From: Chiridota heheva
Lineage: Eukaryota > Echinodermata > Holothuroidea > Apodida > Chiridotidae
Length of the DNA stretch: 64,000 nt
Assembly: GCA_020152595.1 (NCBI GenBank)
Contig: JAIGNY010002799.1
Span: 1 to 64,000, forward strand
Direction of reading: 5' to 3'
Both the position numbers and the translations under genes were made by a program. This document shows, piece by piece, positions 20,560 through 23,406 of this stretch. The notes below the pieces were generated by a model. It was not told where the DNA came from. It was given only the letters and a program-made list of their open reading frames with translations, and did no database searches. Position 1 is the first letter of the stretch; each line of letters starts with the position of its first letter.

Positions 20560-20978
20560 ATATATATATATATATATATATATATATATATATATATATA
20601 TATATATATATATATATATATATATATATATATATATATATATATATATATATATATATATATATATATATATATATATATATATATGTATATATATATA
20701 TATATATATATATTTATATAAAATATATATATTATATATATATATATATATATATATATATATATATATATATATATATATATATATATATATATAAATA
20801 TATATATATATATATATATATATATATATATATATATATATATATATATATATATATATATATATATATATATATATATATATATATATATATATATATA
20901 TATATATATATATATATATATATATATATATATATATATATATATATATATATATATATATATATATATATATATATA
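20560..20978. repeat. (TA)n microsatellite, left flank of the Penelope palindrome
   Basis: About 415 bases of TA repeats with a few TTTATA, AAATA and TGTA interruptions. It ends ~40 bases before the outer end of the Penelope palindrome. Confidence 0.97.
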
Positions 20979-21285
20979 AAAGATAAGTTCCTTGCATTGG
21001 CCATTACAAACAAAACAAAATAGGAAAAAATGACAATGTCTCTAGAGAACAGATTATTTTAAAAACTAAATATTTCGAAAACTCCGTTTCCTTCTTCAGT
21101 GGTATGAAGTTAAATGACGCTAGAAGATAACAGCGATGATAGCTTGCACGTTAGCACATTTCAAAGAGCGCCAAAAATCGTACGCTTAAAAAAGTAGGCG
21201 CAAAAGGGGAAAAGCGCGCAGAAAAAAAAAAGAAAAAAAAAAAACCGGCGCCAAAATGCGCTGAGGCACAAAAACAAGAGAAGGA

Positions 21286-21837
21286 CTAATGAGACGAAGT
21301 GGAAGTGGAAACATTTTTCCTAAAAACAGAAAAAGGAGAAAGATAAGACAGGTTTTTATTAAGTCCATGGATGTGGCTCTTAGTTTTAATCATAAATTGC
21401 AATTCAAACAACTTTCTGTCTCCCGTGCTTCTAAAGTTTCCCCTGATAAGGACCACCTTCAAATGTTCCAACTTATGTCTAGGCAAATTAAAATGCCCTG
21501 CCACGGGATAACCCTCACTGTCACCATCAAAATCGCGAATAGACTGCTTGTGGTTATTGAACCTCAATCGGAAAGAGGTTCCAGTCTCACCAATGTAAGA
21601 AATTTCCGGACATTTCGAACACATCACGCAGTAAATCACGTTAGAAGAATCACAGGAAAAAGTTCCCGGTTTGATCACGTGATTTCTCGGGAGAGATACC
21701 GTCTCATCCGTGACTATGTGCATGCAGATTTGACAACGCGGCTTCCTGCAGGGTTTATTGCCTCGCCCAGGCATCCTGCGCGATATGTTGGAACGTACCA
21801 ACAAATTCCTAAGACTCGGCGGCTGCTTTAGTGCCAC
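21286..21837 (-). pseudogene. GIY-YIG endonuclease, inverted left-arm copy
   Basis: The minus-strand frame holds the same nuclease as the right arm with about four amino-acid differences (for example VTDETV for VTNETV, and GLNKNLSY for GLNKDLSY). The frame extends ~26 codons upstream across the palindrome junction, where it reads antisense RT sequence. It is a truncated copy without its own RT and is not an independent gene. Confidence 0.85.
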
Positions 21838-21841
21838 AACC

Positions 21842-22084
21842 GAATTACCTTTTTTGGATGTTCTGGTCAAAATCTGTGAGGGTTCATTGGTTACCTCCTT
21901 ATACACCAAGCCCACTGATAGTCATGCTTACCTAGTTTATAATAGCAATCATCCCCAACACACTAAGGAATCTATCATTTATAGCCAGTTTCTTCGTCTT
22001 AAGAGAATTTGTTCTGACCCTCTCGATCTCAAGATCCAACTTAACGTTATGTCGGGGCACTTTCTTAAAAGGGGCTATCCTTGA
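21842..22084 (+). pseudogene. Penelope-like reverse transcriptase, C-terminal end
   Basis: About 80 codons in the palindrome spacer: LPFLDVLVKICEG, then SLYTKPTDSHAYLVYNSNHP, then YSQFLRLKRICSD and HFLKRGYP. This string of motifs is typical of the RT C-terminus in Penelope-like elements. The frame closes with TGA at 22082-22084. Continuation into the linker (RSELLEYRIKTKTARIPS and further fragments) requires frame changes and passes a TAG, so the copy is disrupted. The RT palm with its catalytic residues is missing (5' truncation). Confidence 0.88.
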
Positions 22085-22231
22085 AACTGTTAAGGAAATT
22101 CATGGACAAGGTTATTCCTGTCAATCGCAGTGAGCTTTTAGAGTATCGGATCAAGACTAAGACCGCACGCATTCCCTCGTAGTTTCGCACAGTACACAGA
22201 TACAGCCTCTCTTGAAGTGTATTAAATCGTC

Positions 22232-22840
22232 TTGGGGATATTGAAACACGCCCCAGAGGTTGGAGGAATTTTCTCTGCACCACCGGTTGTGGCACTAAAG
22301 CAGCCGCCGAGTCTTAGGAATTTGTTGGTACGTTCCAACATATCGCGCAGGATGCCTGGGCGAGGCAATAAACCCTGCAGGAAGCCGCGTTGTCAAATCT
22401 GCATGCACATAGTCACGAATGAGACGGTATCTCTCCCGAGGAATCACGTGATCAAACCGGGAACTTTTTCCTGTGATTCTTCTAACGTGGTTTACTGCGT
22501 GATGTGTTCGAAATGTCCGGAAATTTCTTACATTGGTGAGACTGGAACCTCTTTCCGATTGAGGTTCAATAACCACAAGCAGTCTATTCGCAATTTTGAT
22601 GGTGACAGTGAGGGTTATCCCGTGGCAGGGCATTTTAATTTGCCTAGACATAAGTTGGAACATTTGAAGGTGGTCCTTATCAGGGGAAACTTTAGAAGCA
22701 CGGGAGACAGAAAGTTGTTTGAATTGCAATTTATGATTAAAACTAAGAGCCACATCCATGGACTTAATAAAGACCTGTCTTATCTTTCTCCTTTTTCTGT
22801 TTTTAGGAAAAATGTTTCCACTTCCACTTCGTCTCATTAG
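22232..22840 (+). CDS. GIY-YIG endonuclease domain of a Penelope-like element
   Basis: An open frame of 202 codons with no internal stop. Residues from about 20 match the Penelope linker (VALKQPPSLRNLLVRSNI). Next comes the Cys cluster KPCRKPRCQICMHI, then the GIY-YIG core. In that core VVYCVMCSKC stands in for the GIY part, ISYIGETGTSFRLRF carries YIG and the catalytic Arg, NNHKQSI holds the HxxxI block, and DRKLFELQFMIK has the likely catalytic Glu. The enzyme nicks DNA at the insertion site. Since the upstream RT is truncated, the frame has no autonomous role; codon integrity suggests recent insertion. The ATG at 22232 is only the first in the frame. Confidence 0.85.
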   Translation: MGILKHAPEVGGIFSAPPVVALKQPPSLRNLLVRSNISRRMPGRGNKPCRKPRCQICMHIVTNETVSLPRNHVIKPGTFSCDSSNVVYCVMCSKCPEISYIGETGTSFRLRFNNHKQSIRNFDGDSEGYPVAGHFNLPRHKLEHLKVVLIRGNFRSTGDRKLFELQFMIKTKSHIHGLNKDLSYLSPFSVFRKNVSTSTSSH

Positions 22841-23116
22841 TCCTTCTCTTGTTTTTGTGCCTCAGCGCATTTTGGCGCCGGTTTTTTTTTTTTTTTTTTT
22901 TTTCTGCGCGCTTTTCCCCTTTTGCGCCTACTTTTTTACGCGTACGATTTTTGGCGCTCTTTGAAATGTGCTAACGTGCAAGCTATCATCGCTGTTATCT
23001 TCTAGCGTCATTTAACTTCATACCACTGAAGAAGGAAACAGGAGTTTTCGAAATATTTGGTTTTTAAAATAATCTGTTGGCTAGAGACATTTTGTCATTT
23101 TTCCTATTTTTTTTTA

Positions 23117-23406
23117 TATATATATATATATATATATATATATATATATATATATATATATATATATATATATATATATATATATATGTATATATATATA
23201 TATATATATATATATATATATATATATATATATATATATATATATATATATATATATATATATATATATATATATATATATATATATATATATATATATA
23301 TATATATATATATATATATATATATATATATATATATATATATATATATATATATATATATATATATATATATATATATATATATATATATATATATATA
23401 TATATA
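23117..23406. repeat. (TA)n microsatellite, right flank of the Penelope palindrome
   Basis: About 290 bases of nearly pure TA beginning ten bases after the palindrome's right end, separated from it by a T-run. Confidence 0.97.

Follow-up and report, generated by a model that had tools for sequence, protein, structure and literature searches.

How did two truncated copies of one retroelement come to lie head to head between two long runs of the dinucleotide TA? The question is raised by a locus of the holothurian Chiridota heheva (assembly GCA_020152595.1, contig JAIGNY010002799.1, positions 1 to 64,000; this 64,000-nucleotide stretch is called the window), in which the interval 20558-23410 holds an inverted pair of copies of a Penelope-like element, a retroelement with a reverse transcriptase (RT) and a putative GIY-YIG domain. 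We read the pair as the product of one insertion of this element into a (TA)n microsatellite in which both DNA ends acted as primers, and we give this reading a probability of about 0.8. It is carried by the anatomy of the locus, by the association of the family with TA repeats, by the presence of two classes of 3′ end and by the pairing of one end of each class in 26 of 28 head-to-head pairs.

Anatomy of the insertion and identity of the element

The features of the insertion are collected in Table 1. The first-pass annotation of this DNA had described inverted arms at 21020-21842 and 22284-23107, TA arrays outside both of them, a single RT remnant in the spacer, exact symmetry, and arms that end at the same base. 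The arms are present, with 98.2% identity over 833 columns (blastn, 22284-23114 against 21842-21013), and a chance origin for them is excluded because of their length and because related copies occur in the same genome. The arrays were recovered by Tandem Repeats Finder, and the spacer proved to be one RT-to-endonuclease linker stretch running into the right arm; its translation (LPFLDVL...) is what we take to be the RT thumb or linker. The symmetry and the common last base did not survive comparison of the copies. The right copy reaches 441 nucleotides (nt) further upstream, and the left copy extends 34 nt past the point at which the right copy stops. Measured from the site that we call SHORT, at which the right copy ends, the truncation points lie about 1.27 kb (right copy) and about 0.83 kb (left copy) upstream. 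The right copy stops at the ...GTTTT position and is followed by TA. The left copy has the end that we call LONG: it reads ...CCTATTTTGTTTT, followed by GTTTGTA, the ATG and the opening codons of the open reading frame (ORF) as far as ...CTTTT, and only then TA. Between the arms, 18 of 822 aligned columns differ, nine of these within one 15-column, indel-shifted stretch near the 3′ end.

Table 1. Parts of the head-to-head insertion at 20558-23410 of the window (ref, reference sequence; UTR, untranslated region; pseudo-LTR, pseudo-long terminal repeat)
Feature	Position	Strand	Basis
Left (TA)n array, target microsatellite	20558-20977		Tandem Repeats Finder: (AT) x211, 20558-20978, 97%
Left copy: 5′-truncated 3′ part with GIY-YIG region and 3′ UTR/pseudo-LTR, LONG 3′ end	20978-21842	-	ref 1673-804 minus, 96.4%
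34-nt "tail" of left copy only: 7 nt, ATG and first ORF codons (MANARNLSF)	20978-21011	-	sequence read
Head-to-head joint, overlap about 1 nt	21842-21843		copy boundaries
Right copy: 5′-truncated, starting behind the RVT_1-matched RT part and spanning the GIY-YIG region, SHORT 3′ end	21843-23114	+	ref 3515-4796 plus, 96.7%
Spacer: part of right copy without counterpart in left copy (LPFLDVL...), frame disrupted	21843-22283	+	sequence comparison
Right arm, common to left copy; weak GIY-YIG match	22284-23107	+	E 0.0026, 18.4 bits, cut-off 22.6
Right (TA)n array, target microsatellite	23115-23410		Tandem Repeats Finder: (TA) x148, 98%

The identity of the element comes largely from a longer copy in L010 (L-numbers denote stretches fetched from the same C. 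heheva assembly, which comprises 1.1 Gb in 3744 contigs). There the reverse transcriptase domain RVT_1 is matched at L010:1697-3712 (E 2.1e-7, 31.3 bits, cut-off 29.6); this part lies outside both window copies, which are truncated 3′ of it. In the same stretch a truncated copy passes through its 3′ end directly into the ORF of a second copy, a tandem or pseudo-LTR layout, and the tract that forms the tail of the left window copy continues there into an ORF starting MANARNLPFRFGVELD. A motif SYIGETGTSFRLRF...H, picked out by eye, is presumably the YIG core. Together with the two end classes and the 28 head-to-head pairs described below, the RVT_1 match and the tandem layout bear out the earlier identification of a Penelope-like element in head-to-head, 5′-truncated copies. 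No hammerhead ribozyme was among the 11 Rfam matches (E up to 5) in window 20000-24000; this ribozyme, reported in several members, is not treated here as defining for all Penelope-like elements. Folding 152 nt at the left 3′ end gave a result no better than shuffles (z 0.88), and sequence searches against PDB returned nothing useful.

Two 3′ end classes and their pairing

The family is abundant. With the best 40 of 1126 first-look candidates scored, 42 matches to the element were found, two of them the window's own arms. A 29-nt anchor placed before the SHORT site occurs at 684 places in the genome with at most one mismatch (reversed-pattern control, 0), and a 25-nt anchor has 362 exact occurrences. 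Exact 36-nt patterns found 123 SHORT sequences running straight into TA and 128 continuing into the tail.

We read 3′ ends from 54 fetched stretches and the window, a nonrandom sample picked for matches to the element and in several cases for facing copies; L001-L008, L030, L031 and L036 were omitted, their places being covered by other stretches, and L057-L064 and everything from L074 onward lie outside this set. A TA-rich repeat, called by script where at least nine TA or AT steps fell within the 44 nt around and behind the 3′ end, adjoins 92 of the 96 ends (one end, C184, enters this count twice, through L056 and L073). For background, (TA)n runs of at least eight units make up 0.3% of the window outside the insertion. 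The remaining four ends are individually accounted for: L010:3611 is internal to the tandem, L066:5 and L073:564 are cut by the edges of their stretches and show TA in the wider reads L084 and L056, and L071:720 belongs to a local duplication, with TA from 770, 50 nt on. Among the ends read, the suggested association of other copies with (TA)n was borne out. A shared 3′ base was not found, since the ends fall into the SHORT and LONG classes (52 and 44 by script, with two SHORT ends reassigned to LONG by hand). The SHORT site is 7 nt before the ATG. Most LONG ends lie 27-44 nt into the ORF, at sub-sites that follow CTTTT, AGATTT or AGAT, or GAGCT. A few ends stray from these points within the tract: that of L053 is 12 nt downstream of the ORF start, and those of L054 and L051 lie slightly beyond SHORT and GAGCT, respectively, by a few nt in each case. 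By analogy with an Anolis relative, for which two start sites are described (PMC11167929), we infer that the two classes may be start sites of reverse transcription.

The classes are not distributed freely among facing copies. We found 28 head-to-head pairs in 23 loci, 27 of them in 22 loci of the assembly besides the window and constructed like the window pair. End labels were assigned by script, which gave 26 SHORT/LONG pairs, one LONG/LONG pair (L040) and one SHORT/SHORT pair (L071:121-342), and all 56 ends were then read by hand. In the first pair of L071 the left arm reads GTTTTGTTTGTA, TA units, ACTTATCTTTT and TA, and is LONG. In the first pair of L066 the left arm is cut by the edge of the stretch; L084 shows its tail, so that this pair is LONG/LONG. 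Read by hand, 26 pairs are SHORT/LONG, two are LONG/LONG (L040 and the first pair of L066) and none is SHORT/SHORT. Against an expectation of one half, 26 mixed pairs of 28 has a binomial p of 1.5e-6. Pairs that share a locus (in L066, L067, L068, L070 and L071) may be local duplicates, and the count per locus is safer: in 21 of the 23 loci every pair is mixed (p 3.3e-5). Among the first 100 places listed for each of the two exact 36-nt patterns are 13 facing pairs, 12 mixed and one LONG/LONG; all 13 lie within loci of the 28, making this a less selective count and not an independent one.

Two neighborhoods show other arrangements. At C1982:223600-224600 (L084/L066), short units cluster over about 0.5 kb with TA between them. 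They comprise one LONG end on the plus strand, one LONG/LONG pair and one SHORT/LONG pair, and their LONG ends are nearly identical (AGATATAT); the cluster is perhaps a local duplication. At C761:648268-648331 (L045), two SHORT ends stand tail to tail, separated by only about 14 bp of TA, and seem to stem from two insertions into a single array.

In the mechanism that we hold most likely, the ribonucleoprotein (RNP) of the element would cut both strands inside (TA)n, an activity for which the enzymology has been published for the Anolis relative. Since (TA)n is self-complementary, both cut 3′ ends would be alike, and either or both could prime. Each end would then prime complementary DNA (cDNA) at the SHORT or the LONG site, the element RNA offering only a small number of fixed positions. 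Both cDNA copies would be 5′-truncated, as the copies at the locus are, and their 3′ ends would be joined head to head, as the joints suggest. Single copies, which prevail (20 of 26 units), would come from extension of one end, and head-to-head pairs (6 of 26) from extension of both. The SHORT/LONG pairing could arise if two polymerases work on one RNA, or from an asymmetric dimer, with the same start only rarely used twice. We infer the cut, the order of the steps and the derivation of the pairing from one RNA or an asymmetric dimer. That the cut (TA)n ends are extended as a coupled pair, one from the SHORT start and one from the LONG, through a shared RNA or an asymmetric RNP dimer, is a tentative proposal to which we give a little less than an even chance. 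If it is true, the Penelope "tail" would have a function, as the spacing of two polymerases that sit on opposite ends of the cut DNA.

Origin of the pair and of the TA arrays

Head-to-head pairs carry a built-in clock, their arms being identical at the start if they come from one source. We aligned 42 copies and compared private substitutions between the arms of nine of the 28 pairs. The LONG/LONG pair L040 has 25 against 1 (p 8e-7), and because of this difference it seems not to be one event; a young copy appears to stand beside an old one. The counts are 7 and 5 in L024, 6 and 3 in L020, 2 and 2 in both L037 and L043, and 0 and 3 in L022. In the window they are 5 and 7, with five of the seven in a misaligned stretch, leaving 5 and 2. 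The window arms also share five states that are absent from the other 40 aligned copies having a letter there, and the L024 arms share nine such pair-only states; among 851 other copy pairs the total is 38 and the maximum six. To judge from these shared letters, the window pair and the L024 pair probably had one source each, in keeping with the earlier suggestion of a single event at the window. The nearest copy of an arm is not always its partner (18 of 822 columns differ between the window arms and 18 of 801 between the left arm and the right copy of L040), as would suit a young family in which few differences have become fixed.

By BLAST boundaries, 15 of the 28 joints overlap by 1-6 nt, one is flush and 12 have 2-20 extra letters. 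In 19 of 85 arms, some of them neighbors in one locus, the 5′ end falls 85-107 nt upstream of the SHORT site, and a short inverted repeat, CTTCA...TGAAG, lies at this recurrent place. Mini-units of about 95-105 bp, consisting of the last stretch of the element only, stand next to or between TA arrays in L033, L034, L041, L026:5259-5354 and others; the L026 unit, the second copy of that stretch, has TA on one side only, and some mini-units are near-perfect palindromes. The clustered 5′ ends and the mini-units of about 100 bp suggest that the RNA has its 5′ end here, or that this is the site of a strong stop.

How else might the pair have formed? The first-pass annotation suggested a single event such as twin priming into a TA array. 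In that process a second primer inside the same RNA would leave the 5′ part of one copy inverted. In L1 twin priming, the inverted 5′ segment and the 3′ segment are non-overlapping parts of one copy. The probable single event, the inverted orientation and the small overlaps at many joints would all suit this process, but the arms duplicate 823 nt instead of splitting one copy, and each copy has its own 3′ end at (TA)n. Given this duplication, twin priming is rejected at the window locus and we hold it to be very unlikely. Target-primed synthesis that starts at the two ends of a break in (TA)n does fit, and it agrees with what has been published on Penelope elements. Two independent insertions into one TA array could also come to face each other by chance. 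Repeated hits on TA arrays do occur, with several units in each of L014, L019, L020, L023, L026, L066, L067 and L068; L040 looks like such a case and the first pair of L066 may be another. The pairs in general, however, have no TA between the copies at the joint, where many overlap by a few nt; with the mixed ends of 26 of the 28 pairs and the pair-only states of the window and L024, this makes chance double hits distinctly improbable.

Another proposal, made for Adineta (PMC3846280), is that one cDNA primes itself or snaps back, or that an antisense template is used. It would find some support in the inverted repeat near the recurrent 5′ end and in the several mini-pairs that are near-perfect palindromes at the joint. 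Snap-back predicts the same 3′ base in both arms and one arm contained within the other, whereas the 3′ classes differ in 26 of 28 pairs and the 5′ reach differs by more than 15 nt in 18 of the 26 mixed pairs. With both extents differing, snap-back of one cDNA is not favored for most pairs, and we consider this family of explanations quite unlikely as a whole. Palindromes and long TA arrays make for difficult assembly, which leaves room for a fold-back artifact. Such an artifact should have produced identical arms, yet the window arms differ at 18 of 822 columns and in both their 5′ and 3′ extents, and 27 other pairs stand elsewhere in the same assembly, bringing the total to 28 in 23 loci. 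An artifact is therefore extremely unlikely.

The first-pass annotation had also allowed that the arrays were created or seeded by the element. We tallied single and head-to-head units by eye across the window and L009-L028, which hold 26 units, 20 single and six head-to-head. TA is present at both outer ends in all six of the latter, and in 14 of the 20 single units the truncated 5′ end, too, adjoins TA by eye. Microsatellite seeding through the 3′ end, as described for the AATAG repeats that long interspersed nuclear elements seed in snakes (PMC6050309, in the passages available), would leave a repeat on the 3′ side and none on the 5′ side, a pattern seen in five of the 20 single units; 14 have TA on both sides and one has other DNA between. 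The adjacency to TA of nearly all 3′ ends read and the five one-sided units would both suit such a process. Element-made arrays are disfavored because a TA-flanked, truncated 5′ end has no priming role. Arrays also occur on their own: the same 21 sequences contain 46 arrays of at least 50 bp, 36 within 40 bp of the element and 10 not touching it. By coordinates, an occupied array or an element end is no more than about 200 bp distant from six of these 10, and the other four are well away from any copy (window 5970-6224, L009:6502, L017:2 and L017:420).

The insertion in L015 lies inside another repeat, so that sister pieces can be compared: they match the left flank in eight of eight cases and the right flank in seven of eight, and none of the eight has a TA array at that place, which taken alone would speak for an array brought by the element. 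The TA stretch of L015 has GT repeats on both outer sides, however, and because of these borders the array is taken to be older than the insertion; our reading is that a compound GT/TA microsatellite grew first and was then hit. Overall, we regard seeding as an unlikely source of the arrays, while local seeding or extension may have occurred at the five single units having TA only on the 3′ side. In the window, the array without a Penelope copy (255 bp of (TA)n within 5937-6224) is preceded by a G-rich, GGGGTGGGGAGGGGG-like tract, and a similar tract lies ahead of the occupied array at 20558.

Several observations weigh against a single insertion into a preexisting array, primed from both ends and started at two sites. 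For the identity of the element, the GIY-YIG match of the right arm stays below the Pfam cut-off (Table 1) and the left arm gives no match. For the target, five of the 20 single units have host DNA at the 5′ side (L016, L018, the first copy of L019, L025 and the second copy of L026), and in L013 120 nt of other DNA precede the TA there. The presence of the window array beforehand is probable, but a search from the left flank gave no empty allele of the site: apart from the site itself, the best 40 of 1537 candidates matched no more than query 1-262 of 641, a dispersed repeat. For common origin, private substitutions are uneven, at few sites, in L044 (0 and 4) and in L011 (0 and 8, with seven of the eight clustered within 12 columns), and pair-only states back a common source in two of the 10 pairs tested, the other eight having none or one. 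For the pairing, the first pair of L066 is an unexplained exception. A shared RNA would lead one to expect the SHORT-started cDNA to run ahead, and this is not seen among the 26 mixed pairs: the SHORT copy reaches further in eight, the LONG copy in 10, and the two are equal in eight. Finally, in vitro work on the Anolis element found that top and bottom strands did not differ in their start sites; in the available parts of that paper, both ends of one molecule were not scored together (PMC11167929).

Elsewhere in the window, a decayed BEL/Pao LTR retrotransposon occupies 7394-12016 on the plus strand; its successive frames match DUF1759 (E 7e-10), Pao peptidase A17 (E 7e-25) and RVT_1 (E 6.5e-8). 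An 8-bp minisatellite (TGCCCCTC) follows in two blocks, 12046-12296 and 12519-12616, and a piece of retrotransposon frame (SEGLLNSRPLTYQTASIKDTVPLTPNYFMHGQ) lies both before and after the first TGCCCCTC block. Two further, long minisatellites have a 61-bp unit in 16 copies (36132-37106) and a 20-bp unit in 40 copies (47426-48226).

Significance and relation to known systems

The mechanism of Penelope integration is still open, and this family offers a natural record of finished insertions, with a high copy number, a self-complementary target and hundreds of readable ends. The pairing of one tail-less with one tailed end, in 26 of 28 cases, is a countable prediction for two-ended, target-primed models, and it helps separate two-ended synthesis from self-priming and from independent double hits. 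In a limited search of the open-licence literature, in which "(TA)n" could not be searched as a term, none of the papers listed was seen to describe a Penelope family that is nearly restricted to (TA)n, or SHORT/LONG pairing as a counted rule; an absence in such a search weighs little. Craig and colleagues are said to have described, in 2021, permuted Penelope-like elements with microsatellite targets.

Several of the components are already published, as far as the available passages of the papers cited here go. Head-to-head copies, a one-sided optional tail and AT-rich targets are known for Penelope elements (PMC3846280, PMC11167929), which are described as inserting at random with a preference for AT-rich DNA (PMC3124438). 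Specialists for (TA)n are known among DNA transposons (PMC4486113): of 218 copies of the Mutator-like MuTAnT elements of Medicago, 14 lie outside perfect (TA)n. The C. heheva family resembles MuTAnT in being a mobile element largely confined to TA microsatellites. MuTAnT, unlike it, is a DNA transposon with an unrelated enzyme, and the passages available mention no head-to-head copies (PMC4486113).

PAc, the Poseidon-type element of Anolis carolinensis, is closer. It is called the first Penelope element active in vitro; its protein cuts and extends both strands and prefers AT-rich DNA, and two internal RT start sites bound an optional tail of 30-40 bp (Frangieh et al. 2024, PMC11167929). The C. 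heheva element shares with PAc the RT domain, a putative GIY-YIG domain, pseudo-LTRs, tandems, an AT-rich target and two putative start sites with an optional tail. It differs in that the 3′ ends read are nearly all at (TA)n and that the starts are mostly opposite at the two ends of an insertion. The positions differ as well: the main start of PAc is 111-118 nt into the ORF, whereas those of C. heheva are 7 nt before it and mostly 27-44 nt into it (PMC11167929).

In the Penelope elements of the rotifer Adineta vaga, inverted pseudo-LTRs are mostly head to head, a pseudo-LTR with a tail runs into the start of the ORF, the optional tail is found at one of the inverted ends, palindromes occur at the joint, and a preference for simple AT-rich targets is cited (Arkhipova et al. 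2013, PMC3846280). The C. heheva family shares the head-to-head copies, the tail into the ORF start, the simple AT-rich targets and the joint palindromes. Target duplications of 8-10 bp are described for Adineta vaga, whereas they cannot be defined within (TA)n. Self-priming on an antisense template was proposed there (PMC3846280); the C. heheva data favor two primers.

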